Origin: Salinibacterium sp. dk2585
GTDB taxonomy: Bacteria > Actinomycetota > Actinomycetes > Actinomycetales > Microbacteriaceae
DNA: 64,000 nucleotides
Direction: 5' to 3'
Assembly: GCF_008001035.1 (NCBI RefSeq)
Contig: NZ_CP042856.1
Span: forward strand, 310,001-374,000
Below are positions 12,935 to 57,442 of the stretch, piece by piece. The translations under genes and the position numbers were made by a program. The notes beneath the pieces were generated by a model, which was given only the letters and a program-made list of their open reading frames with translations, did not search any database and had not been told where the DNA came from. Positions within the stretch are counted from its first letter, which is position 1. Every line of letters begins with the position of its first letter.

Positions 12935-12966
12935 TTACCGTAAACACCCCTGTGAAGGAGCACCCC

Positions 12967-14154
12967 ATGGCAGACAAGATCGAGTCCTCCGCGTTCAGCC
13001 TCACCGAAGAGCAGATCGCCATCCGCGAAGCCATCGACGACCTGTGCGAGCCGTTCGACAACGAATACTGGCGCACGAAGGATGCCGACGACCTCTACCC
13101 CGAGGAGTTCGTCGACACCGTCTACGAGCAGGGCTGGATGAGCATGCTCATCCCCGAGGAATACGGCGGAGGCGGCGCCGACATCCGCGACGCCGCGGTC
13201 GTGCTCGAGCAGATCGAGCGCAACGGATGCCACGCCGGCGCAGTGCGGGCGGGCATGTACACGATGGGCTCCATCCTGCGCCACGGCTCGGACGAGCAGA
13301 AGGCGAAGTACCTGCCGAAGATCGCCTCGGGTGAGCTGCGCCTGCAGTCCTTCGGCGTGACGGAACCGGATGCCGGCTCTGACACGACCCGCATCAAGAC
13401 CTTCGCGGTGCGTGATGGCGACGAATACGTCGTGAACGGCAACAAGATCTTCATCTCGCGCGTGCAGCACTCCGACCTGCTGCTGCTGCTGACCCGCACG
13501 ACCAAGCGCGAGGACGCCACGAAGCCGAGCGATGGCTTCACTGTCCTCCTCGTCGACCTTCGCGAGGCGATCGAGAACGGCCAGATCGTCGCGACCCCAA
13601 TCAAGACGATGGTCAACCATGAGACCAACGAGCTCGCCATCCGCGACCTGCGTGTGCCGGTCGCGAACCGGATCGGCGAGGAGGGCAAGGGCTTCAAGGT
13701 CATCCTCTCGGGCATGAACTCTGAGCGGGTCATCGTCACCAGCGAGTACATCGGCGCTGGGTTCTACCTGCTCGACCGTGCGGTGCAGTACGCCAACGAG
13801 CGTGAGGTCTTCGGGCGCAAGATCGGCATGAACCAGGCCATCCAGATCCCGATCGCTCGCGCCTACGCGCAACTGCAGGCGGCCTCGCTCATGCGCTGGC
13901 GTGCCGCCGAGATGTACGCCGCCGGCGAGAACCCCCGCTTCGAGGTCAACGGCGCCAAGCTGCTCGCCTCAGAGGCGCTGTGGGCTGCGGCCGAGGCGGC
14001 CTTCGACACCTTCGGTGGCTACGCGGCCGCCGAGGAGTACGGCATCGAGCGCGCCTGGCGTGGCGCTCGCCTGCCCCGCACGGCACCGATCAGCAACAAC
14101 ATCGTGCTCGCGGGCATCGCCCACGGCACGCTCGGCCTGCCGAAGTCCTTCTGA
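12967..14154 (+). CDS. Acyl-CoA dehydrogenase (cassette copy 1)
   Basis: FAD enzyme of 395 aa that introduces an alpha,beta double bond in an acyl-CoA and passes electrons to ETF. The three-domain plan is clear: helical N-terminus, FGVTEPDAGSDTTRIKT (129-145) for FAD/substrate, and a C-terminal helical bundle. The usual C-terminal YEGT glutamate is absent (TAPISN is in its place); instead E253 in SGMNSERVIV matches the helix-G position of the catalytic glutamate in isovaleryl-CoA dehydrogenase, which favours a branched substrate (family knowledge plus inference). Start at 12967 is preceded by GAAGGAG. It heads a cassette repeated at 51959, with which most of its second half is nearly identical in DNA. 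Confidence 0.9.
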   Translation: MADKIESSAFSLTEEQIAIREAIDDLCEPFDNEYWRTKDADDLYPEEFVDTVYEQGWMSMLIPEEYGGGGADIRDAAVVLEQIERNGCHAGAVRAGMYTMGSILRHGSDEQKAKYLPKIASGELRLQSFGVTEPDAGSDTTRIKTFAVRDGDEYVVNGNKIFISRVQHSDLLLLLTRTTKREDATKPSDGFTVLLVDLREAIENGQIVATPIKTMVNHETNELAIRDLRVPVANRIGEEGKGFKVILSGMNSERVIVTSEYIGAGFYLLDRAVQYANEREVFGRKIGMNQAIQIPIARAYAQLQAASLMRWRAAEMYAAGENPRFEVNGAKLLASEALWAAAEAAFDTFGGYAAAEEYGIERAWRGARLPRTAPISNNIVLAGIAHGTLGLPKSF

Positions 14155-14159: not shown

Positions 14160-15557
14160 ATGGTCGAATCAGCCACCGAACCGGGAGCGACGGAGGTCCT
14201 GGCGGAGTTCGCCGTCTCGGGAGTCCTCGCATCTGCAGACCACACCGAGGCCGTGACGCGTGCGCTGGTCGACACGGTTGCGGTCTCCCTCGGCGCCTCC
14301 GGCGCGGAGGGAGACCGCATCCTGCGCACCTGGGCGCGACGCGAGTCGCCTTACGGGCCCTCGACCGTCTGGACGTCGGGGGAGACGACGACGCCCTCGA
14401 TGGCGGCACTGGTCAACGGCAATGCCGCGCACCTGCTCGACTACGACGACATCTCGCCGTCGATGCCGCTGCATCCGGCCGCCGTGCTCATGCCCGCCCT
14501 CGTCGCGGTCGCTGAGGCGCGCGGCACGAGCAGTGAGCGCTTCAGTGAGGCCTACGAGGTCGGCTCGGCCGTCTTCCGTGCGGTCGCCGACGTGCTCCCG
14601 CAGCACGTGCACTACGCGCGCGGCTGGCACTCCACCTCGACCGTGGGTCGCCTCGCGACGGTCGCCGCACTCGGGCGACTCGTGGCATCCGATGTCGACA
14701 CGGTCAGGAATGCCCTCGGCATCGTCGCCTCGCTCACGGCGGGCAGCCGGGTCAACTTCGGCACCATGACCAAGCCCTTCCACGCGGGTGCCGCCGCCCG
14801 TGACGCCGTCATGGCGCTCGAGCTCGCCGAGGCGGGCTTCACCGCCAATCCTGATGAACTGGATGCACCGAACGGCTTCCTCGAGCGCTACGGCGACCAG
14901 GAGGTCGCGCCCGTCGGTTCCGCTGGGCAGGCACTCGGGGAGCGCCTCGAGTACTGGGCGGACGCCTGGCCGAGCGACGCTGGACTCAAGCGTTATCCGA
15001 GCTGCTACGGCACCCACCGCAGCATCGACGCCATGCTCACCCTGCGCGAGACCGCGCCGCTTGCGGAGATGCCGACGCGCATCACCGCGACCGTGCACCC
15101 GAGGGGCACGCGGGCGCTGCGCCCCGGCCTGCCGGCGACCGGCACGCAGGGCAAGTTCAGCCTCGAATACACGCTCGCGGTCGCGTGGCTGCGCGGTGAC
15201 GTGACGCTCGACGACTTCACCGAGGAGCGATTCGCCGACGAGGAGGCGCAAGCATTGCTGCGCCGCGTCGAGATCGGCGAGAGCGCCGTGCCGCCCCACG
15301 GCCCGGCCGAGTTCGACACGGGCTACTCCGTTGTCGAGGTCACCTTCCCCGACGGCGGCACCCAGGTCTCGCGCACCGAGGTCACCCACGGGCTCGCGGC
15401 TGACCCGCTGAGCGATGACGAGCTCCGCGGCAAGTTCCTCGACTGCTGCGCGGCCGGCGGCTACGACAGCGAGACGGCCGACCGCATCATCGCCGCCATC
15501 AGCGCCGAACCGGGCGCCGCATTCACATCGTCCATCCCGAAGAGGAGCACCGAATGA
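14160..15557 (+). CDS. MmgE/PrpD family protein (copy 2)
   Basis: Length 465 aa. Contains ALVNGNAAHLLDYDDISPSMPLHPAAVLMPAL and GWHSTSTVGRLATVAALGR, matching the 48405 protein closely in these parts and the 11473 protein less so. Predicted hydratase/dehydratase or decarboxylase of a branched di- or tricarboxylate. It starts 5 bp after the acyl-CoA dehydrogenase stop and overlaps the lyase gene by ATGA, so it is part of the same transcript. In the second cassette no MmgE/PrpD gene is inserted at this place; there the copy lies upstream of the acyl-CoA synthetase. Confidence 0.83.
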   Translation: MVESATEPGATEVLAEFAVSGVLASADHTEAVTRALVDTVAVSLGASGAEGDRILRTWARRESPYGPSTVWTSGETTTPSMAALVNGNAAHLLDYDDISPSMPLHPAAVLMPALVAVAEARGTSSERFSEAYEVGSAVFRAVADVLPQHVHYARGWHSTSTVGRLATVAALGRLVASDVDTVRNALGIVASLTAGSRVNFGTMTKPFHAGAAARDAVMALELAEAGFTANPDELDAPNGFLERYGDQEVAPVGSAGQALGERLEYWADAWPSDAGLKRYPSCYGTHRSIDAMLTLRETAPLAEMPTRITATVHPRGTRALRPGLPATGTQGKFSLEYTLAVAWLRGDVTLDDFTEERFADEEAQALLRRVEIGESAVPPHGPAEFDTGYSVVEVTFPDGGTQVSRTEVTHGLAADPLSDDELRGKFLDCCAAGGYDSETADRIIAAISAEPGAAFTSSIPKRSTE

Positions 15558-16696
15558 CCAAGGGACGCCCCACCATCAGCATCCTCGAGGAGGGGATGCG
15601 CGAGGGCATGCAGATCGAGAGCGCCGACATCCCGGCCGCAGAGAAGATCCGCCTGCTCGACGCACTCTCTGCGACCGGCCTCAAGCGCATCCACGTCGGT
15701 GCCTTCGTGAGCCCCAAGTGGACGCCCCAGATGGCGAACGTCGACGAGGTCATCGCCGGCTTCACCCCCGTCGAGGGCGTCACCTACACCGCGATCGTGC
15801 TCAACCAGAAGGGTGCGGAGCGGCGCGACGCCTACGGCGAGAAGCTGAGCCTGCCCGACCCGACGCTCGGCCGCAGCAAGATCCACCTCTGCGACGTCTT
15901 CGTGCGTCGCAACATCAACATCAGCCAGCAGGACGAGATCGACGCGCTCGGGCGTGCCGTCGCGACCGCCAAGGAGAAGGGCGTCACGCACGCCGAGATC
16001 TCCATCAATGCGGCGTGGGGCTCGAACTGGCTCGGTGAGTTCGATGAAGAGGAGCGGATGCGGCTGCTCCAGCTGCAGCACGACGCGTGGACCTCGGCGG
16101 GCGTGCCCGTCACGCGCATCCACGTCGGCGACCCCATGAGCTGGAACACCCCCTCGGCCGTGCGGTCGATGATGCGCCGCCTCGTGGCGACGTGGCCCGA
16201 GGTGCACGACTACCACCTGCACCTCCACGACGCCCGCGGCATGGCGATGCTGTCTGCCTACGTCGCGATGGAGGAGCTCGACGAGCGCCACACCCTCCAG
16301 ATCGACACCGCCATCGGCGGAATGGGCGGATGCCCCTACTGCGGCAACGGTCGCGCGACCCGCATGATCCCGACCGAGGACTTCGTGCACCTGCTTGAGT
16401 CTGAGGGCATCGAGACGGGCGTCGACCTCCCCAAGCTGATCGAGGCCGGCGTCATCGCCGAGGAGGTCGTGGGGCACGAACTCTGGTCGAAGGTGACCGC
16501 TGCGGGGCCCCGCCCCACGGGTGCCGCCGTCTACGCCATGGACATGCCCTTCATCGAGACCTTCGAGCAGGCATCCCACTTCCGCAACGGGCCCTCGGTC
16601 TACGAGGGCGCCATGTCGCCCTATCGCGAGCCGGTGAAATCCCCCGCTCGCGACGAGTACGAAGCGCGGCTCGCCGCAGAGAAGGAGAGCAACTGA
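15554..16696 (+). CDS. HMG-CoA-lyase-like (pyruvate carboxyltransferase domain) enzyme (copy 1)
   Basis: TIM-barrel lyase of 380 aa from the HMGL-like/DRE-metallolyase group. The metal-binding HLHD (H223-H225) and the flexible-loop cysteine GGMGGCPY (C260) of HMG-CoA lyases are present. The N-terminal RDGLQ signature is altered to REGMQ (R16-E17), so the usual Asp metal ligand is Glu; the paralogue at 53195 has the same change. Such enzymes cleave tertiary 3-hydroxyacyl-CoAs. Its position beside a CoA-transferase, an enoyl-CoA hydratase and an acyl-CoA dehydrogenase supports cleavage of a CoA ester. It is longer than bacterial HMGL (about 300 aa), mainly at the C terminus. Confidence 0.83.
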   Translation: MTKGRPTISILEEGMREGMQIESADIPAAEKIRLLDALSATGLKRIHVGAFVSPKWTPQMANVDEVIAGFTPVEGVTYTAIVLNQKGAERRDAYGEKLSLPDPTLGRSKIHLCDVFVRRNINISQQDEIDALGRAVATAKEKGVTHAEISINAAWGSNWLGEFDEEERMRLLQLQHDAWTSAGVPVTRIHVGDPMSWNTPSAVRSMMRRLVATWPEVHDYHLHLHDARGMAMLSAYVAMEELDERHTLQIDTAIGGMGGCPYCGNGRATRMIPTEDFVHLLESEGIETGVDLPKLIEAGVIAEEVVGHELWSKVTAAGPRPTGAAVYAMDMPFIETFEQASHFRNGPSVYEGAMSPYREPVKSPARDEYEARLAAEKESN

Positions 16697-17910
16697 TGAG
16701 CACCCCAGGTTCCCTCAAGGGGATTCGCGTCATCGAGATCGGCACGAGCGTCGCGGTGCCCTACGGCTGCCAGGTCCTCGCCGACTTCGGCGCCGAGGTC
16801 ATCAAGGTCGAGCGGCTCGGGGGCGGCGACGACGCTCGCGCCTGGGCCCCGCTCAGCAAGGGCGTCTCGGTCACCTTCCTTTCGCTCAACCGCAACAAGA
16901 AGTCGGTCGTCGTCAACTACAAGGATGCGAAGGGCAAGAAGGTCCTCGAAGACCTCATCGCCTCGGCGGATGTGCTCGTGCAAAACCTCCGCCCCGGCGC
17001 GCTCGCCAACGCTGGCTTCTCATGGGAGCGCATCCACGAGATAAACCCCCGCGTCATCTACGCCGACATGAGCGGCTACGGCCGCACCGGCCCGCGCCGT
17101 GACCAGCCCGCCTACGACGCGATGCTGCAGGCCTACTCCGGCGTCGTCGCCATGACCGGCGAGGAGGGCGGCGCGCCCGCCCGCGTGCCGCTGTCGATGA
17201 TGGACATGGGCACGGGCATGTGGATCGCGCTCGGCGTCTTCGACGCGCTCCGCCGCCGCGACCAGACGGGCGAGGGTGTGCACCTCGAGGTCTCGCTGCT
17301 GCAGACGGCCCTCGCGTGGGTTGCCACGCCGCTCATGAGCGTGGCGGCGGGAAGCCCCGTGCCCAAGCGCCTCGGCTCCGGCTTCCGCGGCAACGTGCCC
17401 AACGGCGCCTACCCGGCATCCGACGGCTACGTCTTCCTCTCCTGCGGCAACAACGACACCCTCTACCGCCTGCTCGACGCGATCGAAGCGCCGGAACTCA
17501 AGGATGTGCCCGAGTTCGCCGACAACGTCACGCGCGTCAATAACCGCGGCGTCGTCAACGAGCGACTCGGCGCGGCCACCTCGCGCTTCACGATGGATGA
17601 GCTCGTCGAGCGGCTCGACAAGGCCAACGTGCCCCACTCGGCCGTCAACACGCTCGACAAGGTCATCGTCGACCCGCAGGTGCAGGCCATCGGCCAGCTG
17701 GAGGAGATGGAGCACCCGGAGCTCGGCGAGTTCACGATCGTCAACACCCCCATCACCTTCGACGGTGAATACCTTGAGCACACGGGCGCGCCCCCCGCCG
17801 TCGGTGCTGACACGGCCTCCGTGCTCGCAGAACTCGGCATCGAGGCATCCGACATCGACGCCCTGCTCGAGGCCGGCGTCATCGAGATCGCAGAAGGAGA
17901 CGCAGCATGA
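16696..17910 (+). CDS. CaiB/BaiF family III CoA-transferase (cassette copy 1)
   Basis: CoA-transferase of 404 aa. GTSVAVPYGCQVLADFGAEVIKVER, NLRPGAL and PARVPLSMMD with catalytic Asp at D170 are visible, the same position as the known Asp169 of formyl-CoA transferase. TGATG overlap with the lyase fixes the start. It probably activates the cassette's acid substrate by taking CoA from a product thioester. It is much closer to the 54334 protein than to those at 8539 and 44135. Confidence 0.9.
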   Translation: MSTPGSLKGIRVIEIGTSVAVPYGCQVLADFGAEVIKVERLGGGDDARAWAPLSKGVSVTFLSLNRNKKSVVVNYKDAKGKKVLEDLIASADVLVQNLRPGALANAGFSWERIHEINPRVIYADMSGYGRTGPRRDQPAYDAMLQAYSGVVAMTGEEGGAPARVPLSMMDMGTGMWIALGVFDALRRRDQTGEGVHLEVSLLQTALAWVATPLMSVAAGSPVPKRLGSGFRGNVPNGAYPASDGYVFLSCGNNDTLYRLLDAIEAPELKDVPEFADNVTRVNNRGVVNERLGAATSRFTMDELVERLDKANVPHSAVNTLDKVIVDPQVQAIGQLEEMEHPELGEFTIVNTPITFDGEYLEHTGAPPAVGADTASVLAELGIEASDIDALLEAGVIEIAEGDAA

Positions 17911-18722
17911 GTGACGGACTGAACGGTGGCCTCATCGCTGGCACCCCCGACGAGGTGCTCTACGAGGTCACCGACCACGTCGCGCGCATCACGATCAACC
18001 GCCCCGAGCGGCGCAACGCCATGAGCCGGCACACCGTGCAGTTGCTGCTCGAGGCCTTCGTCGAGGCGGGCGAGGACCCGGAGGTCTGGGCCGTCGTCAT
18101 CACGGGCACCGGCGACAAGGCGTTCTGCGCCGGCGGTGACCTCAAGGAGATGAACTCGATCGCCAAGGCCGGCCGCCAGGTGCACACGCCCATGACGGGG
18201 GTGCACCGCGCCATGCTCGAGGTGATCGTCGAGACCTACAAGCCCGTCATCGCCGCAATCAACGGCCACGCGCTCGCCGGTGGATGCGAGATCGCGCTCG
18301 CCGCCGACATCCGTATCGCTGTCGAGGGCACGACCATCGGGCTCACGGAGGCCAAGCGCGGCATGGGGGCCAACTTCGGTTCCATCGTGCTGCCCCGCCT
18401 CGTTCCCCGCGGCTACGCGATGGACATGCTCTACACGGGCCGCATGGTTCCCGTCGAGGAGGCCGCCGAGATCGGACTCGTCAACAAGGTCGTCTCGCGG
18501 GAATCCTTTGAAGAGGAGGTCGAGGCCTACGTGCGCAGCATCGTGGCGAACTCGCCCGTCTCCACGCGTCGCTACAAGGAGATGGCCGTCAAGGGCTGGG
18601 GCCTGCCCCTCGCCTCGGCGCTGCGCCTCAACGTCGGCCCCAACCCCTACACGAGCGAGGACCGCGCCGAAGGCGTCGCCGCGTTCGTCGAGAAGCGCGC
18701 ACCCCAGTGGAAGAACAGGTAG
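17907..18722 (+). CDS. Enoyl-CoA hydratase/isomerase (cassette copy 1)
   Basis: Crotonase-fold enzyme of 271 aa. The oxyanion-hole segment FCAGGDL and both catalytic glutamates of hydratases are present (GGCEIALAADI and LTEAKRGMG), so true hydratase activity is likely. It would add water to the double bond made by the acyl-CoA dehydrogenase, giving the 3-hydroxyacyl-CoA for the lyase. ATGA overlap with the CoA-transferase. No 3-hydroxyacyl-CoA dehydrogenase or thiolase follows. The C terminus ends in QWKNR, identical to its copy at 55575. Confidence 0.9.
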   Translation: MSDGLNGGLIAGTPDEVLYEVTDHVARITINRPERRNAMSRHTVQLLLEAFVEAGEDPEVWAVVITGTGDKAFCAGGDLKEMNSIAKAGRQVHTPMTGVHRAMLEVIVETYKPVIAAINGHALAGGCEIALAADIRIAVEGTTIGLTEAKRGMGANFGSIVLPRLVPRGYAMDMLYTGRMVPVEEAAEIGLVNKVVSRESFEEEVEAYVRSIVANSPVSTRRYKEMAVKGWGLPLASALRLNVGPNPYTSEDRAEGVAAFVEKRAPQWKNR

Positions 18723-40286: not shown

Positions 40287-40577
40287 GTGAGTGACACCAT
40301 GGACGAGCTGCTCTCCCTGCGCCAGAGCATCGACAATGTCGATGCGGCCCTCATTCACATGCTGGCGGAGCGCTTCAAGTTCACGCAGCAGGTCGGTCGG
40401 CTGAAGGCCAGGCACGGCCTGCCGCCCTCCGACCCGGAGCGCGAGCGCGTGCAGATCGAGCGGCTGAGGGCGCTCGCTGCTGACTCGAACCTCGACCCGG
40501 AGTTCGCGGAGAAGTTCCTCAACTTCATCGTCGCCGAGGTCATTCACCACCACGAGCGCATCCGCGACGAGTCTTAG
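40287..40577 (+). CDS. Chorismate mutase, AroQ type
   Basis: 96-aa all-helical protein: LRQSIDNVDAALIHMLAERFKFTQQVGRLKARHGLPPSDPERERVQIERL is the classic helix-1/helix-2 pattern of AroQ mutases (Arg, Lys, Asp/Glu active-site residues). Converts chorismate to prephenate in aromatic amino acid synthesis. Start GTG at 40287 or ATG at 40299; there is no strong ribosome site. It is a biosynthetic gene at the end of a degradation operon, followed by a 300-bp gap, so it may be an old neighbour outside the inserted catabolic genes. Confidence 0.85.
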   Translation: MSDTMDELLSLRQSIDNVDAALIHMLAERFKFTQQVGRLKARHGLPPSDPERERVQIERLRALAADSNLDPEFAEKFLNFIVAEVIHHHERIRDES

Positions 40578-40877
40578 CCCACCGCGACGGACCCCGCTTC
40601 GCGGTCGGGGCTTCGTCTGCCGTCCACCCTTTAGTTTGTGTACCCGATGATTTAGCAAAACTATTGCAATAGGCCTCCGCCCTCGTGTTCGGCGCTATGT
40701 GCGGGCCATCCACTCATGTTGCCCGCGGTTCCGGGGAAATCAATGCTTGACGGCCCCTGAGTGCTCTCCTAGGGTTTCGATACGTACACGCAGAATCTCG
40801 CGGAAGCCAGACACGGCCAAACCGTAAGTAGGCGTGAGAATTTGTTTCCCAACGATGCGAAACGGCGGCACAGCACA
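40578..40877. other. 300-bp intergenic region
   Basis: Relatively AT-rich for this DNA. It holds an imperfect hairpin at 40586-40617 after the chorismate mutase, a perfect 12-bp palindrome CTATTGCAATAG at 40661-40672, and a good promoter-like pair at 40747-40775. No convincing small ORF or RNA gene was recognised. Confidence 0.55.
40747..40775 (+). promoter_or_regulatory. Sigma70-type promoter candidate
   Basis: TTGACG (-35, 40747-40752), 17-bp spacer and TAGGGT (-10, 40770-40775), about 100 bp before the monooxygenase ATG at 40878. The palindrome CTATTGCAATAG lies 75 bp upstream of the -35. Confidence 0.55.
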
Positions 40878-42074
40878 ATGAACTCCACGCAACCCACCCA
40901 CGACGTCCTGGTGCTCGGAGGGGGCATTGGCGGCCTCGCAACCGCGATCGCGCTGGCCGATGTCGGCCGCACGGTGCACCTCGTTGAGCAAGCAGCGGAG
41001 TTCGGGGAGATCGGCGCGGGCCTGCAGCTCGGCCCCAACGCGATCCGCAGTCTCGACCGGCTCGGCGTGTGGGACGAGGTCAAGAAGACCGCGGTGTTCC
41101 CCAGCGCCGGCATCATCATGGACGCGATGACGGGCGAAGAACTCACCCGGCTCGACCTGGGCCCAGCCTTCATCGAGCACTACGGCTACCCCTACGTTGT
41201 CGCACACCGCGCCGACCTGCACAGCATCCTCGTCGAAGCCTGCCGCCGCCGCCCCGAGATCACGCTCGAGACGAACCGTCGCGTGGTCGAGGTCACCGAA
41301 TCAGCGGATGCCGCGGCCGTGACCTTTGCCGATGGCGACCAGTACGTCTCCAAGACGGTCATCGGTGGCGACGGCATCCGTTCGCGTACCCGGCTGCAGT
41401 TCGACGACAGCGAGCCGAAGTTCACGGGCCAGACCGCCTACCGCGGCACCGTGCCGACAGAGCTTGTCGACCTGGACTCCGACGACGTCATCCTCTGGAT
41501 GGGCCCGAACTTCCACATGATCCAGTACCCCGTGCGGGCCGGTGAACTCTACAACCAGGTCGCCGTGATTGAGAGCAAGTGGCACGCGCAGGGCCGCGAG
41601 GACTGGGGCACCCGGGCCGAGCTCGATGAGGTGACGCGGGATGCCTGTGACGAGGTCAAGGCATCGCTCGCGATGCTGACGAGCGAACAGAAGTGGCCCA
41701 TCTACGACCGCGACCCCATGTACTCCTGGTCGACCGAGCACACCGTGCTGATCGGCGATGCTGCGCACGCCATGCGCCAGTACCTGGGCCAGGGTGCCTG
41801 CCAGGCGCTAGAGGACGCGCTCGTGCTCGCCCAGGCCGTCGCCCGGCATCCCGAGCAGTCGGCCGCGTTCGCCGAGTACGAGGAGCGCCGCGTGCCGCGC
41901 GGGACACGGTGCCAGGAGGTCTCGCGCCCGTGGGGCGACCTGTGGCACACGGAGGACCCGACCCTGCAGCTCATGCGCAACAAGTACTTCAAGATGCGCG
42001 CCGCCGACGACTACTCGGAACTCGACTGGCTCTACAACGACCACGTCGGCGAGCTGTCGCCCGCCCGCGCCTGA
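40878..42074 (+). CDS. FAD-dependent 3-hydroxybenzoate 6-hydroxylase-like monooxygenase (copy 2)
   Basis: 398-aa group A flavoprotein. GGGIGGL (14-20), GGDGIRSRTR and LIGDAAHAMRQYLGQGACQALED mark the FAD sites; EFGEIGAGLQLGPNAIRSLDRLGVWDEV and GPNFHMIQYPVRAGELYNQVAVIES are the wording of 3-hydroxybenzoate 6-hydroxylases. Likely makes gentisate, with the FAH-family hydrolase 35 bp downstream later in the route. The ribosome site is poor (GCGGCACAGCACA), and a longer TTG start 36 bp upstream is possible. Related to, but clearly diverged from, the 7110 protein. Confidence 0.82.
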   Translation: MNSTQPTHDVLVLGGGIGGLATAIALADVGRTVHLVEQAAEFGEIGAGLQLGPNAIRSLDRLGVWDEVKKTAVFPSAGIIMDAMTGEELTRLDLGPAFIEHYGYPYVVAHRADLHSILVEACRRRPEITLETNRRVVEVTESADAAAVTFADGDQYVSKTVIGGDGIRSRTRLQFDDSEPKFTGQTAYRGTVPTELVDLDSDDVILWMGPNFHMIQYPVRAGELYNQVAVIESKWHAQGREDWGTRAELDEVTRDACDEVKASLAMLTSEQKWPIYDRDPMYSWSTEHTVLIGDAAHAMRQYLGQGACQALEDALVLAQAVARHPEQSAAFAEYEERRVPRGTRCQEVSRPWGDLWHTEDPTLQLMRNKYFKMRAADDYSELDWLYNDHVGELSPARA

Positions 42075-42109
42075 GCCCCCTGCTTCTGAACCCCTAGAGA
42101 GGAACGCCC

Positions 42110-43024
42110 ATGCGCTACGCAAGCGTCGTCCACAATGGCCGTCTGACCGCCGTCTCGGTCACCGAGCACGGTTACCGTGACCTGTCCGCCCTACTCCATG
42201 ACTCGTCGGCGAGCGGCGACCCCATGCTCGACCTGCTGCGCGTGATCGCTGAGACGGAGCTCTCGCAGGAGGTCATCGAGGCCCAGCCGCTCATCCCGAG
42301 CGATGAAGTGACCGTCGCCCCGCTGCTCTCCCGCCCCGGCAAGATCGTCGCGGCCCCCGTGAACTATGAGGACCACCAAGAGGAGATGAAGCAGCTCGGC
42401 AACGTGTCTGCCCTCGGCTTCTTCCTCAAGTCCCCGACCTCGGTGGCGGCGCACGGAAGCACGGTGCGACTGCCCTACAGCGACCGTCGCTTCGACCAGG
42501 AGGGCGAACTCGCTCTTGTCATCGGCAAGCGCGGTCGCAACATCCCGCAGGAGAGCGTGGCGGAGCACATCGCGGGCTACACGTGCCTTCTCGACCTGAC
42601 GATGCGCGGCGGGGAGGACCGTTCCACCCGCAAGTCCTTCGACACCTTCACCCCGGTCGGGCCGCACCTCGTCACCCCCGACGAGGTCGGTGACCTCGAC
42701 CAGCTCACGATGACCTGCGCCGTCAACGGCACGGTGCGCCAGGACACCGACATCAAGGACCTCATCTGGGGAGTGCCCCAGTTCGTCAGCTACGTCTCGT
42801 CGGTGACGACGCTCGAGGTCGGCGACATCATCACGACGGGCACGCCCGCGGGCGTCGGCGTCATCCGCGACGGCGACACCATCGAGGTCTCGATCGACCG
42901 CATCGGCACCCTCGCGGTCACGGTCAGCGACGAGCACGCCGTGCCGTGCCCGACCCTTGGAGCGAACTCGGGCCCGCACGCGCCCGAGACGATCACACCG
43001 GTTCGGGAGCGCGCCCGCAGCTAG
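42110..43024 (+). CDS. Fumarylacetoacetate hydrolase-family protein
   Basis: 304 aa. C-terminal FAH domain from about residue 75: GKIVAAPVNYEDHQEEM, then DQEGELALVIGKRGRNI with the acidic metal ligands, and GDIITTGTPAGVG. Members act as fumarylpyruvate hydrolase, oxaloacetate decarboxylase or ketopentenoate-type enzymes. Next to a 3-hydroxybenzoate hydroxylase, cleavage of maleyl/fumarylpyruvate from gentisate is the best guess. GAGAGGAAC site before the ATG. Confidence 0.85.
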   Translation: MRYASVVHNGRLTAVSVTEHGYRDLSALLHDSSASGDPMLDLLRVIAETELSQEVIEAQPLIPSDEVTVAPLLSRPGKIVAAPVNYEDHQEEMKQLGNVSALGFFLKSPTSVAAHGSTVRLPYSDRRFDQEGELALVIGKRGRNIPQESVAEHIAGYTCLLDLTMRGGEDRSTRKSFDTFTPVGPHLVTPDEVGDLDQLTMTCAVNGTVRQDTDIKDLIWGVPQFVSYVSSVTTLEVGDIITTGTPAGVGVIRDGDTIEVSIDRIGTLAVTVSDEHAVPCPTLGANSGPHAPETITPVRERARS

Positions 43025-43093
43025 CGTGCCGTCCCTGCAGCAGCACCCCGCGGCGCTTCGCCGCCAACGATCAATGGAGATCAGGAGAACGAC

Positions 43094-44050
43094 ATGAAGG
43101 CATTCAAGATCGCATCGGTAGCGACGGTTGCAGCACTCGCCCTCGCGGGATGTGGCGGTTCCGCGGCACCCGACGAGGGCGCCAACGGGCTCACCCCCGT
43201 CTCGGTCGCCGCCATCCCTATCGCGGACACGGCAGCCCTGCACCTCGGGGTCGAGCAGGGCTTCTTCGAAGACGAGGGGCTGGATGTCACGGTCGAGAGC
43301 GTCATGGGCGGCGCGATCTCGGTGCCAGGCGTCGTCAGCGGCGACTTCGACTTCGCCTTCTCTAACGTCATCAGCATGTTCGTGGCGCAGGAGCAGGGTC
43401 TCGACCTCCAGTTCGTGACGAACGGTGCGACGAGCACCGGCGAGGTCGACGCCGACATCGCCGCGATCGTCGTGCTCGACGACGCACCGTACAAGTCCGC
43501 GGCGGACCTCGATGGCCTGACGGTCTCCTCGAACCTGCTCTCCAACATCGGCGACACCACCATCCGGCACGCGGTCGACGCGGCTGGTGGCGACGGGGCT
43601 TCACTCAACTTCATCGAGGTTCCAGTGCAGGAGGCGATGGCCGCGCTCGAGAACAAGCAGATCCAGGCGGCGCTCGTCGTTGAGCCCTTCCTGACGCAGG
43701 CGCTGCAGACGGGCGGCCGCGCACTCGACTGGAACTATGTCGCGGTGCATCCGGAAATGGATGTCTCGGGCTACATGACGAGCGGACGGCTCGTCAAGGA
43801 GAACCCAGAGCTGGTCGAGAAGTTCGCGGCCGCGATGGCGAAGTCCCTCGAGTTCTCGCAGGAGAACCCTGACGAGGTGCACCGCATCATCACGACCTAC
43901 ACGCAGATCACTCCGGAGCTTGCCGCCGACATCGTGCTGCCGCGGTTCAAGCCGGACTTCAACCGCGAAGCCATGGAGATCCTCGGCAAGGCGGCCGCCA
44001 AGTACGGGATCCTCAAGGCCGAGCCGGACCTCGACACGCTGCTTCCCTAG
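43094..44050 (+). CDS. Orphan SsuA/NMT1-like ABC substrate-binding lipoprotein
   Basis: 318 aa. Signal peptide ends in lipobox LAGC (Cys about 19). Mature part: VSVAAIPIADTAALHLGVEQGFFEDEGLDVTVESVMGG and VVSGDFDFAFSNV, typical of the sulfonate/thiamine-precursor/aromatic acid binding family. No permease or ATPase is adjacent. A GCGGCG-CTT-CGCCGC hairpin at 43050-43064 lies between it and the hydrolase. It probably captures the aromatic acid fed to this operon (inference), using membrane parts encoded elsewhere. Confidence 0.87.
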   Translation: MKAFKIASVATVAALALAGCGGSAAPDEGANGLTPVSVAAIPIADTAALHLGVEQGFFEDEGLDVTVESVMGGAISVPGVVSGDFDFAFSNVISMFVAQEQGLDLQFVTNGATSTGEVDADIAAIVVLDDAPYKSAADLDGLTVSSNLLSNIGDTTIRHAVDAAGGDGASLNFIEVPVQEAMAALENKQIQAALVVEPFLTQALQTGGRALDWNYVAVHPEMDVSGYMTSGRLVKENPELVEKFAAAMAKSLEFSQENPDEVHRIITTYTQITPELAADIVLPRFKPDFNREAMEILGKAAAKYGILKAEPDLDTLLP

Positions 44051-44134
44051 CCGGCGGGTCGAGCAGGCCCGTCGGGGCCATGCCTCCACCGCCCAGACCA
44101 CAACCGTCCCCGTCAGACCAGCCAGGAGCATCCC

Positions 44135-45373
44135 ATGTCACATTCGTCTGCTTCACCCCTCAGCGGGGTGCGGGTCCTCGAACTCGGCAACTACATCGCT
44201 GCCCCCACGGCCGGCCGGATGCTTGCCGACTTCGGTGCAGAGGTCATCAAGGTGGAGCGTCCCGGCACGGGGGATGAGCTTCGCCGTTGGCGCCTGTACT
44301 CGGGTGACACGTCGATGCTTTACCGCACAATCAACCGCAACAAGAAGTCGCTCGTGCTGGACCTGGGCTCGCCCGAGGGGCGGGCGGCCGTCGTCGAACT
44401 CGTCAAGCACTGCGATGTGCTGATCGAGAACTTCCGGCCGGGCACGCTCGAGAAGTGGAGTATCGGGCCCGAGGTGCTCAAGGAGGCCAACCCGGAGCTG
44501 ATCATCTCCCGCATCTCCGCCTTCGGGCAGACGGGGCCGCTCTCATCCCGACCGGGGTTCGCGGCGGTCGCGGAGGGCTACGGGGGCCTGCGCAACCTCA
44601 TCGGTGAGGCCGACCGGCCGCCAGCCCGCGTCGGCGTCTCGATCGGCGACTCCATCGCGGGGCTCTATGCGGCGCTTGGTGTTGCCATGATGCTCTTCGA
44701 CCGCGAGCGGGGCCGCGAGCGGGCGGGGTCGTCGTCTGCCCCGGTCATCGACGTGGCGCTCAACGAGGTGATCCTCTCGATGATGGAGTCGCTCGTGCCC
44801 GACTACGAGGCCTTCGGCGTGCTGCGCCAGCGCACGGGGGGCCGGGTCGAGGGCATCGCCCCCTCCAACGCGTACCTCTGCGCCGACTCCTCGAGCGTCA
44901 TCATCGCTGGCAATGGGGACTCGATCTTCCTCCGCCTGATGGAGGTCATCGGGCGTCCCGACCTCGCGGCAGACCCGCAGCTGTCAGAGAACGCCGGCCG
45001 CTGGGAGCGACGCGACGACCTGGATGCCGCGATCGAGGGGTGGACCTCGGCGCACAGCTCCGAACACGTGCTTGCGGCGCTCGCCGAGGCGGGTGTGCCG
45101 GCGGGCCCCATCTACTCGGCCGCCGACATCACGAAGGACGAGCAGTACCGCGCTCGCAACATGATCCAGAAGTTCTCAGTGTCGACCGGCAGCGAGGTGA
45201 TCGACGACGTCGGATTCACGGGAATCGTTCCGGTGCTCGGTGACGTGTCGGCGTCGATCCGCACACTCGGCCCGGAGCTCGGTGAGCACACGGACGAGAT
45301 CCTCGGCGGCATGCTGGGCATGTCGAGCGACGAGATCTCGGCCGTCACAGGCGGGGCGAGGGCGGCCGAGTGA
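44135..45373 (+). CDS. CaiB/BaiF family III CoA-transferase (copy 3)
   Basis: 412 aa: NYIAAPTAGRMLADFGAEVIKVERPGTGDE, IENFRPGTLEKWSI and PARVGVSIGDSIAGLYAAL with the catalytic Asp at D172. It is nearer in wording to the general formyl-/succinyl-CoA type than to the cassette copies at 16696 and 54334. AGCCAGGAGC precedes the start. It begins the block leading through a tandem MarR gene to the LeuCD-like genes, so it may activate the acid handled by those enzymes. Confidence 0.87.
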   Translation: MSHSSASPLSGVRVLELGNYIAAPTAGRMLADFGAEVIKVERPGTGDELRRWRLYSGDTSMLYRTINRNKKSLVLDLGSPEGRAAVVELVKHCDVLIENFRPGTLEKWSIGPEVLKEANPELIISRISAFGQTGPLSSRPGFAAVAEGYGGLRNLIGEADRPPARVGVSIGDSIAGLYAALGVAMMLFDRERGRERAGSSSAPVIDVALNEVILSMMESLVPDYEAFGVLRQRTGGRVEGIAPSNAYLCADSSSVIIAGNGDSIFLRLMEVIGRPDLAADPQLSENAGRWERRDDLDAAIEGWTSAHSSEHVLAALAEAGVPAGPIYSAADITKDEQYRARNMIQKFSVSTGSEVIDDVGFTGIVPVLGDVSASIRTLGPELGEHTDEILGGMLGMSSDEISAVTGGARAAE

Positions 45374-45397
45374 GGATGAGTGCGGCGGGGGAGCATC

Positions 45398-46315
45398 ATG
45401 GCTGACACGGCGTGGATGTCGGGTGGATTCCTGCTGCGCCGTGCGCAGCGGGTGCACACCTCGCTGTGGAACGACCTGTTCGGCAACGAGCTGACGGGCC
45501 CCCAGTACTCCACCCTCATCGCGATCGCGCGCTGGCCCGGGTCAGACCAGCAGACCCTCGGCGAGCTGACCGGCCACGATAAGGCCACGATGGGCGGGAT
45601 CATCGAGCGGCTCGAGACGCGGGCACTGGTGGAGCGCACGCCGGATCCCGGCAACCTTCGCCGCTACCGACTTGACCTCAACGAGCACGGTCGCGCCTCG
45701 ATGGCCGCGTTCGCGGAGCGTGCGACCGCCGTGCATGACGCCCTCCTGGACCTGCTGCCGGAGGGCAGCGGCGCGGAGTTCGTCGGTCTCGTCTTCGCGG
45801 TGGCGTATGCGGGCGGCGCTCCGCAGGAGCCGCGCGTCGACGACCCGGGTTTTCCCGTCATGAGCATGTCGACCTCGATCGGCCACCTGCTGCGGCGCGC
45901 CCACCAGAACCACGCCGCCCGGTGGAACGAGATCTTCGCGGGCGAGATCACCACCGCCCAGTACTCGGTGCTCGCGGCGTGCTCCGCGCTCGAGGTGCCC
46001 GATCTCTTCGCGGTCGCAGAGCTCGCTGGGCTCGACCTGTCATCCGCGGGCGCCGTCATCACCCGCATGGAGAAGGACGGATGGCTCGTCAAGGTGACCG
46101 ATGAGCAAGACAAACGCCGCCGGCTTATCCACCTCACGCCCGTCGCGCGTATCGCGGCGCGATGGAGCGTGCACGGGGTGGAGCAAGTGGAAGAGAAGCT
46201 GTTGGGCGTGTTGGGCGAGGCCGAGCGCGAGCGCTTGGCGTTCCTTGCGCGTCAGCTGATTGACGCGCATGACGCGGGGCGCAGGGGCCCCCGGCGACCG
46301 CGCGGCACCGAGTGA
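45398..46315 (+). CDS. Tandem MarR-domain transcriptional regulator
   Basis: 305 aa containing two complete MarR winged helix units: about residues 5-145 ([11 protein letters not shown]...[42 protein letters not shown]) and about 155-290 ([11 protein letters not shown]...[43 protein letters not shown]). MarR proteins are normally about 150-aa homodimers, so this is a covalent pseudo-dimer. The halves differ in sequence, which would favour an asymmetric operator or two ligand pockets. GGGGGAG site before 45398. It lies inside the operon it may regulate. Confidence 0.87.
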
Positions 46316-46326
46316 AAGGGCACATC

Positions 46327-47790
46327 ATGAGCGCAGAAGAGAAGTCTCGGACTCTCGCCGAGAAGATCTGGGAGTCCCGCCTCGTGCGGCGGGGAGAGGG
46401 CGAGGGCTCGAGCCGCGAGCCAGATCACATCTACATCGACCTGCACCTCGTGCACGAGGTCACCTCGCCCCAGGCATTCGACGGTCTTCGACTCGCGGGG
46501 CGCACCGTGCGGCGGCCTGACCTGACGATCGCCACGGAAGACCACAACACCCCGACGGTCGACATCGACAAGCCCATCGCAGACCTCACGAGCCGCCTGC
46601 AGATCGAGGCGCTCCGCAAGAACTGTGCTGAGTTCGGCATCCCGTTGCACTCACTCGGTGAGCTGAACCAGGGCATCGTGCACGTGGTCGGGCCGCAGCT
46701 GGGCCTGACCCAGCCGGGTCTCACGGTCGTCTGCGGCGACTCGCACACCGCGACGCACGGTGCCTTCGGCGCCCTCGCCTTCGGCATTGGGTCCTCCGAG
46801 GTCGAGCACGTGCTCGCGACACAGACGTTGCCGCTCAAGCCCTTCAAAACGATGGCGATCGTCGTCGACGGCGAGTTGAAGCCCGGAGTTTCATCGAAGG
46901 ACATCATCCTCGCGATCATCGCGAAGATCGGCACAGGCGGTGGGCAGGGCTACATCTTCGAGTACCGCGGCTCCGCGATCGAGGCGCTGTCGATGGATGC
47001 ACGCATGACGATCTGCAACATGTCGATCGAGGCGGGCGCGCGGGCGGGCCTGATCGCTCCCGACGACACGACCTTCGAGTATCTGAAAGGCCGGCCGAAT
47101 GCGCCGAGCGGGGCCGATTGGGATGCGGCGGTTGCGGAGTGGCGGCAGCTGCGCACCGACGATGGTGCCGTGTACGACGCCGAGGTGCACATCGACGTGA
47201 ACGAGCTCGAGCCCTTCGTGACGTGGGGGACCAACCCTGGACAGGGCGTACCGCTCTCGGGTGCCGTGCCCTCGCCCGAGGACTTCAGCAATGAGAGCGA
47301 ACGCCAGGCGTGCATCCAGTCGCTCGAGTACATGGGCCTCACGCCGGGCACTCGGCTCAAGGAAGTCGACATCGACACGGTCTTCCTCGGCTCCTGCACG
47401 AACGGGCGTCTCGAGGACCTTCGGGCGGCGGCCGCCGTCGTGCAGGGGCACACGATCGCCCCCGGGGTTCGCATGATGGTGGTCCCGGGCTCGATGCGGG
47501 TGCGTCAGGAGGCCGAGGCAGAGGGACTCGACCGGGTGTTCCTCGACTTCGGCGCCGAATGGCGTTACTCGGGCTGCTCCATGTGCCTCGGCATGAATCC
47601 CGACAAGCTCGCGCCGGGCGAGCGCTGCGCATCCACGTCCAATCGCAACTTCGAGGGTCGGCAGGGAGCGGGTGGGCGCACCCACCTCGTCTCGCCCGTC
47701 GTCGCAGCGGCGACCGCAGTGCGGGGCACGCTGAGCTCGCCCGCAGACATCATCGCGCCGGCCCCAGTCGGCGCCCGCGCAGGAGAGTGA
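46327..47790 (+). CDS. LeuC-like aconitase-family hydro-lyase, large subunit
   Basis: 487 aa. The [4Fe-4S] ligands are visible ([13 protein letters not shown], then [12 protein letters not shown]), as are [28 protein letters not shown] and ATEDHNTP. By homology it is the large subunit of isopropylmalate isomerase, but the setting with CoA-transferases and MmgE/PrpD, far from leucine genes, suggests a catabolic relative such as a methyl- or dimethylmaleate or citraconate hydratase (inference). ATG at 46327, 11 bp after the regulator. The small subunit follows. Confidence 0.87.
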
Positions 47791-47799
47791 GGATCCACC

Positions 47800-48393
47800 A
47801 TGGAGAAGATCACGAGCCACACGGGCATTGGCGTTCCCCTGCGGCGCAGCAACGTCGACACCGACCAGATCATCCCGGGCGAGTTCTGCAAGCGGATCAC
47901 CCGCACGGGATTCGATGACGCGCTCTTCGCCGCCTGGCGCAAGGACGAATCGTTCATCCTGAACCAGCCCCCGTACTCGCAGGGTTCGGTGCTGGTCGCA
48001 GGCGTCGACTTCGGCACCGGATCCTCCCGGGAACACGCAGTGTGGGCGCTCAAGGATTACGGCTTCCGCGCCGTCGTCTCGTCACGCTTCGCCGACATCT
48101 TCCGCGGCAACGCCGGCAACCAAGGCCTCGTGACGGCGCAGGTCGAACAGGCCGAGGTAGAGCGGATCTGGGAACAACTCGAGGTGCAGCCGGGGCTGGC
48201 CGTCACGGTCGACCTCGTGCAGCGACACGTCACCTGCGGCTCCGTGAGCGCACCCTTCGTGATCGACGAGTACACGCGCTGGCGCCTTCTGGAGGGACTC
48301 GACGACATCGGACTCACCCTCCGTCACGAGGACGCCATCGGGGAATTCGAATCGCGCCGCCCGCGCCGCCTTCCCACGACGATCGCCAGATAG
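47800..48393 (+). CDS. LeuD-like aconitase-family hydro-lyase, small subunit
   Basis: 197 aa swivel subunit of the preceding enzyme. [21 protein letters not shown] and [24 protein letters not shown] are the substrate-loop and phosphate/carboxylate-binding landmarks of LeuD. Together with the large subunit it should add or remove water across a 2-substituted malate/maleate. The C-terminal [14 protein letters not shown] tail is basic. 9 bp downstream of the large-subunit gene. Confidence 0.88.
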
Positions 48394-48404
48394 GAACCAG
48401 CACC

Positions 48405-49769
48405 ATGACCGATCACGCGGCCGAACGGGGCCTGACCCTACGCCTCGCGGAGCTCGCTGTCGCGCTGCCTGTGGGGGAACGCCTGCACGCGGACGTGATC
48501 GCGCAGGCGTGGGCCGACACGATTGCCGTGTCGGCGGCCGCCGTCGGGCAGCAGGGGCTCCGCGACATCCGCTCTGCCGTGCTCGGCCAGCATGCGTCAT
48601 CGCTCTGGTTGGCGACCGGGCCGCAGCGGGCCGACGACGCCGCCCTCCTGAATGGCACGGCGGCGCACTTCCTCGACTTCGACGACGTCTCGCCCTCGAT
48701 GCCGCTGCACCCCAGCGCGGTGCTCGTCCCAGCGCTCATGGCGGCCGAGTCACACGGCGAGTTGCGCTTCGACCGCTTCGCGGAGGCCTTCAACGTTGGG
48801 TCCGCGATGTTCCGCTACATCGCGGAGGCGCTGCCGAGCGAGGAGCACTACGGGCGCGGTTGGCACTCGACGGCGACCGTCGGTCGTGTGGCGGCGGTGG
48901 CCGCCATCGCCCGCTACCGGCGGTTGTCGGCCGAGGTGACGGCGAATGCGCTCGGCATGGCCTCGTCGATGGCGTCCGGTTCGCGCGTGAACTTCGGCAC
49001 CATGACCAAGCCGCTGCACGCCGGCCTGGCTGCCCGCGACGCCCTGCACGCGGTCGAATGGTCGGAGGCTGGCGTGACGGCCTCGACAACGGAACTGGAA
49101 TCGAAGGGCGGGTTCTTCAGCCGCTTCGGCACCGCGGATGCCGCGGGGCTCGCCGAGACGGTCGAGGCGCGTTTCACCCACTGGGTCGAGGAGTGGCCGA
49201 GCGACTGGGGGCTCAAGCGCTATCCGTCCTGCTACGGCACGCACCGCCCGATTGACGCGGCGCTCGAACTGCGCGCGCTCGTGCCCGCCGAGCAGGTGGC
49301 CCGCGTCGAGGTTGAGATCTACCGCGGCGGCAGCGCGCCGCTCACCCCGCGCCCGCCCGAGGCTGGCACCGAGGCGAAGTTCAGCCTCGAATACTGCACC
49401 GCGCTCGCGTGGTTGCGGGGGAACGTGGCCCTCCTTGACTTCGCGGATGCGCACTTCGCCGCGGACCGTGCCGAGGTTGCTGCGCTGGCCTCGCGCATCT
49501 CGCTGCGCGAGGTCGACGGTGAGGGGGAGTTCGCGCACGTCACGGTGTTCGCCGCCGACGGTGGCTCGCACCACCGCACGGTGACCCTCACGAAGGGTTC
49601 CGGAGGCAACCCCATGGGGCCCAGCGAGTTACAGGCGAAACTCCGCTCGTGCCTCGAGTTCGCGGGTGTAGCGGGTGGCGAGAGGCTGCTCGCGGGGGCC
49701 GACGGGTACTCGCCCGAGCAAGACCTCATCCAGATCGCCGCCGAACTTCGTCTCGAAACCGGGTCTTGA
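48405..49769 (+). CDS. MmgE/PrpD family protein (copy 3)
   Basis: 454 aa. LLNGTAAHFLDFDDVSPSMPLHPSAVLVPALMA, YGRGWHSTATVGRVAAVAAI and NFGTMTKPLHAGLAARDA match the 14160 protein segment by segment, so the two are paralogues. Predicted dehydratase or decarboxylase of a branched di/tricarboxylic acid, directly beside the LeuCD-like pair, a combination reminiscent of citrate/methylcitrate chemistry. AGGAACC site before 48405; 2 bp separate its stop from the next ATG. Confidence 0.85.
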   Translation: MTDHAAERGLTLRLAELAVALPVGERLHADVIAQAWADTIAVSAAAVGQQGLRDIRSAVLGQHASSLWLATGPQRADDAALLNGTAAHFLDFDDVSPSMPLHPSAVLVPALMAAESHGELRFDRFAEAFNVGSAMFRYIAEALPSEEHYGRGWHSTATVGRVAAVAAIARYRRLSAEVTANALGMASSMASGSRVNFGTMTKPLHAGLAARDALHAVEWSEAGVTASTTELESKGGFFSRFGTADAAGLAETVEARFTHWVEEWPSDWGLKRYPSCYGTHRPIDAALELRALVPAEQVARVEVEIYRGGSAPLTPRPPEAGTEAKFSLEYCTALAWLRGNVALLDFADAHFAADRAEVAALASRISLREVDGEGEFAHVTVFAADGGSHHRTVTLTKGSGGNPMGPSELQAKLRSCLEFAGVAGGERLLAGADGYSPEQDLIQIAAELRLETGS

Positions 49770-49771
49770 TC

Positions 49772-51886
49772 ATGTCCATCACGAATCCCCCCACGCGCCC
49801 CTCAGGCCTTGACGCCCTCTTCGCTCCTCGCAGCGTGGCGGTCATCGGTGCGTCGGCATCGCCCGAGAAGCCCAGCCACATGCCGCTGCGCAATCTGCTG
49901 CGCAACGGCTTTGCGGGCGAGGTGTTCCCCGTCAACCCCTCCGCCGAGTCGGTGCTTGGGGTTCCGGCGTACGCCTCGATCACGGATGTCCCGGCTCCCG
50001 TCGACCTTGCCTACATCGTCATCCCGGCCGAGTTCGTGCTCGACGAGCTCGAGCGCTGCGCTGCTGCCGGCATCCCGTGCGCGGTCGTTGCCGTGAGTGG
50101 CTTTGCCGAGACAGACAGCGCGGATGGCCGCAGTCGCCAGCAGCGCATCGCCGAGATTGCGGCGAGTTCCGGCATGCGCATCCTCGGCCCCAACACCAAC
50201 GGGCTCTACAGCACGCCCGCCTCGATGTCGCTCGGCTACAACTCGGCGCACGAGCGCACGTTCACGCGAGGCAGGCTGGCGATCATCTCCCACAGCGGCG
50301 CCCTCTTCAGCGCCGTCGCTGGCCAGCTTGAGCAGCGCGAGGTCGGCCTCGACACCTTCGTCTCTGTGGGCAATGAGGCGGATGTCACGATGCTCGACCT
50401 CGTGGAATACTGCGTGCACCAGGGCGAGAGTTCCGTCATCGCGATGATCATGGAGTCGGTGCGGGACGGTCACCGCCTCCGGGGCCTCGCCGATGATGCC
50501 CGCGCCCGCGGCAAGACCCTGGTCGCATTGAAGCTCGGACGCTCCGTTGCCGGGGCGCGGGCGACGGTCGCCCACTCCAGTCGGCTCGCGGGGTCGTCGG
50601 CCGCATATGAGGCCTGGCTCGAGGACGCCGGTGTGCCGCTGCTCGACAGTCTCGAGAGCATTGCCGGCCTGGCCTCGATCGCGGAGCACAGCCCCGCAGC
50701 AGTCCGGCGCGGTGGTCTCGGTGTGGTCACCTATTCCGGCGGCGGCAGCGCACTCGTGGTCGACAGGGCAAGTGAGCTGTCACTGCCCGTCGCTGAGCTC
50801 GGGGCTGAGACCCTCGCGGCCCTCGCGGCGCGGCTCACCCGGCCCGCGCCGCTGATGAATCCGCTCGACATGGGGGCGGGCATCCCACTCGCCGAAAGCT
50901 ACGAGGCGCTGTCGGCGGTCGCGAATGACCCTGGCGTCGGGGCGATGGTGGTCTTCCTGCATGGCATGCAGACGCCGGCCGTCAATCTCATGATCGCCCG
51001 AGCGATCGCGAAGTCCCAGCGAGACACGGGCGTACTGCACGTCGTGATTGCTCCCGGCGGGGTGAGCTGCGAGGAGCACGACATCCTGAGCGATGCCGGC
51101 ATTGAGGTCTTCACCAATACGGCCCTGTGCCTCTCGTCGCTCAAGCCGCTCGTGCAGGTGGCAACGTATGAGGTCACCACCGAGCGCGCGGTGCAAGCCG
51201 AGACGGAGACCCTGCCCGAAGGGGTCCTCGACGAACGAAGGAGCCTGGAGCTCCTGGCGCGTTGGGGCATCCCCGCGGTCGTGCCAAGACTCGTGCGCAG
51301 CGCGATCGACGCGCACGCCGTCGCGGATGCCATGGGCTATCCCGTCGTCATGAAGGGACTCGTCGACGGTGTCGCGCACAAGGCCGAGGCGGGCCTCGTG
51401 CGGCTCGGCCTCGAGAGCCCATCCGACGTGGTCACGAACTTCACCTCGCTTGAGGCGGTGATCGCGCAACTCTCGCCCAGTGGCGGCGACATCATCATCG
51501 AACGCCAGGCGACCGGTGAATTCGAGGCCTTCGTTGGCAGCAGCCGGCAGCCAGGCATCGGGCACGTGCTCGTGGCGGGACTCGGTGGCGTCTACACGGA
51601 GGCGATCGCGCAGGTCGTGCTCTGGTCGGTGCCCGTCGCGCGCGACCGGATCCGGCACAAGCTGCTCGACTCGCCCCTCGGTCGCATGCTGGGGCGGCTT
51701 GAGAGCGAGAACCCAGGGGTCACGGAGCAGTTCATCGATGTCGTCGATCGCGTGCAGGACATGCTCTTGGCCCATCGTGACTCGGTTGATGCGATCGACC
51801 TCAACCCCATTCTGATCACCACGGAGGGGCCCATCGCCGTCGATGCGCTTCTCGTCGCAAGCCGGCCAGGCGGGACTCCGCCGTGA
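49772..51886 (+). CDS. ADP-forming acyl-CoA synthetase, fused alpha-beta
   Basis: 704-aa fused NDP-forming acyl-CoA synthetase. Order: CoA-binding Rossmann domain (FAPRSVAVIGASASPEKPS), succinyl-CoA-ligase-like domains (ILGPNTNGLY, IISHSGALFSA, phosphohistidine H268 in VAHSSRLAGSSAAYEAW) and a C-terminal ATP-grasp domain (AVADAMGYPVVMKGLVDGVAHKAEAGLVRLGL). It activates an organic acid with ATP and CoA, or runs backwards to make ATP from the thioester. No acetyltransferase domain is seen, so it is not a Pat-type protein acetylase. It begins 2 bp after the MmgE/PrpD stop. Confidence 0.87.
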   Translation: MSITNPPTRPSGLDALFAPRSVAVIGASASPEKPSHMPLRNLLRNGFAGEVFPVNPSAESVLGVPAYASITDVPAPVDLAYIVIPAEFVLDELERCAAAGIPCAVVAVSGFAETDSADGRSRQQRIAEIAASSGMRILGPNTNGLYSTPASMSLGYNSAHERTFTRGRLAIISHSGALFSAVAGQLEQREVGLDTFVSVGNEADVTMLDLVEYCVHQGESSVIAMIMESVRDGHRLRGLADDARARGKTLVALKLGRSVAGARATVAHSSRLAGSSAAYEAWLEDAGVPLLDSLESIAGLASIAEHSPAAVRRGGLGVVTYSGGGSALVVDRASELSLPVAELGAETLAALAARLTRPAPLMNPLDMGAGIPLAESYEALSAVANDPGVGAMVVFLHGMQTPAVNLMIARAIAKSQRDTGVLHVVIAPGGVSCEEHDILSDAGIEVFTNTALCLSSLKPLVQVATYEVTTERAVQAETETLPEGVLDERRSLELLARWGIPAVVPRLVRSAIDAHAVADAMGYPVVMKGLVDGVAHKAEAGLVRLGLESPSDVVTNFTSLEAVIAQLSPSGGDIIIERQATGEFEAFVGSSRQPGIGHVLVAGLGGVYTEAIAQVVLWSVPVARDRIRHKLLDSPLGRMLGRLESENPGVTEQFIDVVDRVQDMLLAHRDSVDAIDLNPILITTEGPIAVDALLVASRPGGTPP

Positions 51887-51917
51887 CCAGCCGCCCGTCG
51901 CGACACCACCCCTCGCC

Positions 51918-51932: not shown

Positions 51933-51958
51933 CGGCGCCAATTGATAGAGGAGTACCC

Positions 51959-53146: not shown

Positions 53147-53194
53147 GCTGCCGACCTCCACGTCACACGAGAACCCACACGCTAGGAGCACGCT

Positions 53195-56449: not shown

Positions 56450-57442
<993 letters not shown>

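Follow-up and report, generated by a model that had tools for sequence, protein, structure and literature searches.

The acyl-CoA dehydrogenase genes A and B of Salinibacterium sp. dk2585 raise the question of how two paralogues came to be nearly identical over one part of their length and well diverged over the rest. Both genes are located in the window (the whole stretch of 64,000 nucleotides that was analysed, C1:310001-374000 in a genome assembled as one contig of 2,835,338 bases), in the same orientation and with 39 kb (39,000 bases) between them on one chromosome. Each belongs to a cluster of homologous genes arranged in the same order: acyl-CoA dehydrogenase, HMG-CoA-lyase-like, class III CoA-transferase and enoyl-CoA hydratase. 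The third gene used in the comparisons, A1, is the orthologue of A in the sister species G001.

12952..14154, + strand: acyl-CoA dehydrogenase copy A, 400 amino acids, with the Pfam acyl-CoA dehydrogenase N, M and C domains
51959..53146, + strand: acyl-CoA dehydrogenase copy B, 395 amino acids, 93% identical to A at the DNA level
15554..18722, + strand: cluster A partner genes (Pfam), HMG-CoA-lyase-like, CoA-transferase III and enoyl-CoA hydratase
53195..56378, + strand: cluster B partner genes (Pfam), in the same order as in cluster A

The MmgE/PrpD-like gene of cluster A is located between the dehydrogenase and the lyase, and that of cluster B is located upstream, preceding an acyl-CoA-synthetase-like gene; the MmgE/PrpD pair is about 72% alike across part of its length. 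Copy A has five additional N-terminal codons, and the rest of the A-B codon alignment is free of gaps.

The mosaic of copies A and B

The original prediction held that many silent differences over the first 350 bp or so give way to a nearly identical segment, a mosaic left by a recent conversion or recombination event. It had placed this segment correctly to within a few bases, and the tract was delimited as follows.

13315..14049, + strand: putative conversion tract in A (minimum 13329-14046, maximum 13313-14051), residues 122-366 of 400
52307..53041, + strand: putative conversion tract in B, from the codon alignment (offset 38992, no gaps)

The results of the three-way counts on the codon alignment showed that the base differences between A and B were 58/348 in the 5' part (12967-13314), 19/735 in the tract (13315-14049) and 11/105 in the 3' part (14050-14154). 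Silent codon differences were 31/101, 19/245 and 6/32, respectively, and the decrease from the 5' part to the tract (Fisher p = 1.7e-7) excludes a uniform divergence along the gene. The number of amino-acid differences was 15 before the tract, 0 in the tract and 2 after it. All 19 base differences of the tract are silent, which fits with both copies having been kept working. The many differences predicted for the first part of the gene are therefore present, while the description of the tract as almost identical, silent positions included, was close but overstated, since 19 silent differences remain. The predicted return of differences 3' of the tract was found in the base counts, but not in a max-chi-square scan limited to silent codons, which gave a low segment of 13294-14151, reaching the gene end (matched by 0 of 2000 permutations).

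The two edges are not equally well defined. The 5' edge (13313-13328) is sharp and is fixed by the last site of unmixed type, at 13312, and by the first site of the tract at which A equals B, at 13329. The 3' edge (14047-14051), fixed by sites 14046 and 14052, is weaker, as its support comes from six codons that differ within 14050-14070, two of them in the amino acid, and it is invisible from silent sites alone, with 6/32 silent codons differing beyond it. Moreover, A equals B and is unlike A1 again at three sites past this edge (14133, 14136 and 14148), which makes the 3' edge less certain than the 5' edge. The posterior probability of conversion given by our HMM was at least 0.98 at all four inner points reported (13330, 13399, 13699 and 13999). 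The same model pointed to a further segment.

13225..13268, + strand: candidate short second patch of 44 bases, apart from the main tract, where A is like B and unlike A1 (HMM posterior about 0.87 at 13240)

Among the 15 silent-comparable codons of this segment, 2 differ between A and B, 6 between A and A1 and 7 between B and A1, and a second patch of the same kind is possible there.

Paralogues that are 97% identical are a known hazard for assemblers, and the A-B identity of the tract is at this level, so that a mixing of reads from the two copies had to be weighed. Against such an artefact, the 19 differences are scattered, the longest run identical between A and B is 101 bases, and the genome is a single contig of 2.84 Mb, estimated to be 99.99% complete. 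The spacing of the 19 differences was mildly unusual when short gaps were counted (8 gaps of three codons or fewer versus 3.9 expected, p = 0.012) and was not unusual by gap variance (p = 0.41). Collapse of the assembly is unlikely, and we give very little credence to mixed reads as the origin of the mosaic.

Comparison with the sister species and outgroups

A search with copy A (E <= 1e-100) found the gene in 4 of 59 relatives, the own genome counted, and a search with copy B (E <= 1e-120) found it in 2 of 5 genomes of the genus, this genome being among the five. A search at the family level gave 6 of 398 genomes, drawn from a larger group. A contig scan gave at least 80 loci, with at most 63% identity among the matches listed, and only L012 of these was used, in the outgroup silent counts. 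Of the remaining four genomes in the genus, G001 alone carries a close relative of the gene, in one copy: the A copy is the single close match of G001 at E <= 1e-100, and the next best is 43% identical. A1 has 97% protein identity to A and is in synteny with it, and the DNA around A, from window position 6285 to 25691, aligns to G001 at 94%. G001 was the only relative found with the gene in synteny, and these searches found no other strain of the species.

Comparison of the three genes showed that A is closer to B than to A1 inside the tract and that the order is reversed outside it. In the tract, base differences were 2.6% for A-B, 9.0% (66/735) for A-A1 and 9.1% (67/735) for B-A1, while the corresponding values were 16.7%, 8.0% and 15.8% in the 5' part and 10.5%, 4.8% and 13.3% in the 3' part. 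The proportion of silent codons that differ inside the tract was 8% for A-B versus 25% for A-A1. Variable sites at which A equals B, A equals A1, B equals A1 or all three differ numbered 56, 9, 8 and 2 in the tract and 13, 49, 13 and 7 outside it, and the first two classes were distributed very differently between the tract and the rest of the gene (Fisher p = 4e-14). Only inside the tract does the distance between the paralogues fall below that between A and its orthologue, which supports the predicted conversion or recombination.

An explanation without any exchange, in which the middle and C-terminal domains are slow to change, draws on the fact that the tract covers most of these domains (Pfam 133-228 and 245-378) and contains no amino-acid difference between A and B. 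However, silent differences between A and A1 are higher in the tract (60/241) than in the 5' part (12/94 without the patch, 18/109 with it); those between B and A1 are 61/241 in the tract. The silent differences of six pairs of outgroup genes (L101-L104) were 0.46, 0.40, 0.55, 0.21, 0.63 and 0.62 in the 5' part and 0.48, 0.48, 0.50, 0.21, 0.53 and 0.56, respectively, in the tract part. The tract part was higher in two pairs, equal in one (L102-L103, 23/108 and 51/242) and lower in three, the largest decrease being from 0.63 to 0.53. Since the outgroup pairs have similar silent rates in both parts, the decrease from 0.31 to 0.08 between A and B cannot be ascribed to the gene as such. These silent-site counts contradict domain conservation as the explanation, and a history without exchange is highly improbable.

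Rooted trees with four distant outgroups (70-71% protein identity) rejected none of the possible arrangements, whether built from the tract or from the flank. The p-AU values of the (A,B), (A,A1) and (B,A1) arrangements were 0.67, 0.41 and 0.29 in the tract, 0.63, 0.50 and 0.14 in the flank, and 0.23, 0.78 and 0.23 in the flank without the patch.

The partner genes of the two clusters differ at 95/304 silent codons (31%) for the lyase, 113/320 (35%) for the CoA-transferase and 63/245 (26%) for the enoyl-CoA hydratase. As predicted, the lyase and CoA-transferase pairs differ throughout, and the HMM found no conversion tract in either (maxima of 0.11 and 0.05, respectively). The hydratase pair gave weak signals at 18432-18489 and in the last codons, from 18693, with a maximum of 0.67. 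Conversion is not evident in the partner genes.

Origin, age and direction of the proposed exchange

We consider it likely that the mosaic was produced by one non-reciprocal exchange (gene conversion) of about 718-739 bases between A and B, on the same chromosome and after the split from G001. Both copies would have been present in the same cell, where a break or gap in one dehydrogenase copy would have been repaired by a RecA-type process using the other copy, 39 kb away and in the same orientation, as the template. The repair would have proceeded with no crossover, which would have deleted the 39 kb between the copies. Gene conversion of this sort commonly accompanies DNA repair, and it stands out here because the sister species carries a single copy. 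The copies are alike in the tract, as a one-way transfer leaves them. The flanks and the partner genes suggest that the copies may have been well diverged, at about 30% of silent codons, at the time of the exchange, which is possibly less usual.

Because A1 stands apart from both A and B in the tract, the exchange most likely post-dates the species split, on the assumption that no later replacement affected A1 itself there. At 7.8%, the silent A-B difference of the tract amounts to some 55-60% of the silent distance usually seen between the two species, for which the medians are 14.0% (863 orthologue windows) and 13.0% (168 local windows). This difference is below the orthologue level, with a binomial p of 0.007 when that level is taken as 0.13 and of 0.05 when it is taken as 0.112. 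The event, which had been called recent, looks younger than the split but is not fresh.

As for the direction, B was probably the donor and A the recipient. In the tract, A and B are both at a silent distance of 25% from A1, a value between the orthologue-like level (11% over the three partner genes, with a median of 14%) and the paralogue-like level (30%). The A-A1 distance of the tract (60/241) is significantly higher than that summed over the three partner genes (108/1025, p = 3.8e-8). A beta-binomial comparison, in which the spread of the paralogue class was set equal to that of the orthologues, favoured B as donor by a log-likelihood of 2.0 with all genes and 3.5 with local genes. Of the 124 genes chosen for its background set, 121 were used, copy A and two rows of cluster B having been removed. 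At third positions, the GC shift between A and A1 within the tract (9:18) resembles that of the B partners versus A1 (49:92) and not that of the A partners versus A1 (35:39). In a three-state model, three choices of rates favoured the B-to-A direction, by 8.0, 5.3 and 3.6.

The same exchange with A as donor and B as recipient, a variant whose probability overlaps with that of the main explanation, is rather unlikely. It was favoured by 5.3 in the three-state model when the rates were 0.17/0.34, which lie near the rates found for the 5' part if the patch is included. The third-position GC content of B is also higher in the tract (0.914) than in the 5' part (0.828), while A has 0.922 in the 5' part and 0.906 in the tract. 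However, the value for A1 also climbs, from 0.897 to 0.943, so that the increase in B is partly a property of this part of the gene. A as donor is also opposed by the silent A-A1 distance of the tract, which is about twice that of the three partner genes, and by the other results of both models. Since the direction flips with the rates of A's own 5' part, B as donor is favoured but the evidence is not decisive.

Divergence as high as that of the tract is not confined to it: a silent divergence of at least 0.249 from G001 was reached by windows in 9 of 102 orthologue genes. Eight of these genes lie to the left of the stretch analysed, and the ninth, at window position 4963-6252, is only some 6.7 kb away from copy A. 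The block C1:316285-350568, which holds cluster A, has no such case among its 168 windows.

The region of cluster B and comparison with known systems

Cluster B is located in a stretch that differs from the surroundings of cluster A in its relation to G001.

40569..64000, continuing to C1:375071 (no strand): stretch holding cluster B, without a syntenic counterpart in the compared part of G001, from synteny blocks

The synteny blocks with G001 stop at window position 40568 and resume at C1:375072, so that the stretch runs 1071 bases past the window. Searches of the whole of G001 gave best matches of 76% identity for window 41000-51900 and 71% for 56400-64000. The non-syntenic stretch is about 24.5 kb long, and its place in G001 is taken by about 10.4 kb of different DNA, most of which resembles C1:285564-293492 of G000 at about 75%.

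The absence of synteny makes transfer plausible there, and the 7.8% silent distance of the tract would also fit the divergence from a close relative. The exchange could thus have occurred between cells, either because another strain or species supplied a B-type or mosaic gene that entered the A locus, or because cluster B was already mosaic when it came from a close relative. We consider this unlikely, as it requires an unseen donor whereas a possible donor is present on the same chromosome; moreover, had B been mosaic on arrival, A would behave in the tract like any other orthologue of A1, but the A-A1 distance is raised there (60/241). If the exchange took place within the chromosome and from B to A, the species-specific cluster B would have overwritten the core of the dehydrogenase of the resident cluster A. 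A variable region would thus edit the conserved genome while the partner genes keep diverging, a picture that we put forward tentatively.

The proposed conversion between A and B is a clean case of a known process, the partial homogenisation of two paralogues. It resembles the tufA/tufB conversion of Salmonella enterica (Paulsson et al. 2017, PMC5485169), as described in the parts of that paper used here, in that two paralogues of about 1.19 kb share one chromosome, identity stops at the gene edges and the tract is contiguous over several hundred bases. The tuf genes are 1185 nt long, their average unrestricted conversion walk is about 1000 nt and more than 96% of the tracts are contiguous, so that the size of the tract reported here is ordinary by the figures in those parts. 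By the same account, the tuf genes have 12 differing positions, are inverted and are 762 kb apart, whereas A and B are direct and 39 kb apart. The tract of A and B, unlike the tuf case, has flanks that differ at about 30% of silent codons, and the gene is homogenised in part only. Conversion of the tuf genes was selected in the laboratory, while the event described here was read from a genome. According to the portions consulted of the study of concerted evolution of prokaryote paralogues by Wang and Chen (2018, PMC6053082), the paralogues there are likewise closer to each other than to the orthologue of another species. That study describes recurrent homogenisation in 26 genes, most of it over more than about 500 million years, in contrast to the one partial tract in one species found here.

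A literature search found no paper on this gene pair, which offers a naturally occurring, clearly delimited case of partially homogenised metabolic paralogues, dated by a sister species. Judged by the core of the gene, the duplication would seem young, whereas the flanks and the partner genes reveal a greater age, and trees or divergence dates obtained from this dehydrogenase gene alone would mislead.

Three other features were observed in or near the window. Five consecutive chosen genes at C1:267911-277541, about 32-42 kb to the left of the window (L109, L110), have a silent divergence of 24-28% from G001, compared with a window median near 14%, and this is possibly a replaced segment. Seven perfect copies of GCCGAC are located at window position 56975-57016, within the LysR-type regulator gene adjoining cluster B. 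A 21-base repeat with the core TTCCCAACTCAGGA forms tandem and inverted intergenic arrays at window positions 23993-24145 and 20241-20318. Exact copies of this core number 31 in this genome, 12 in G001 and 0 in three other genomes of the genus, and it looks like a lineage-specific dispersed repeat.
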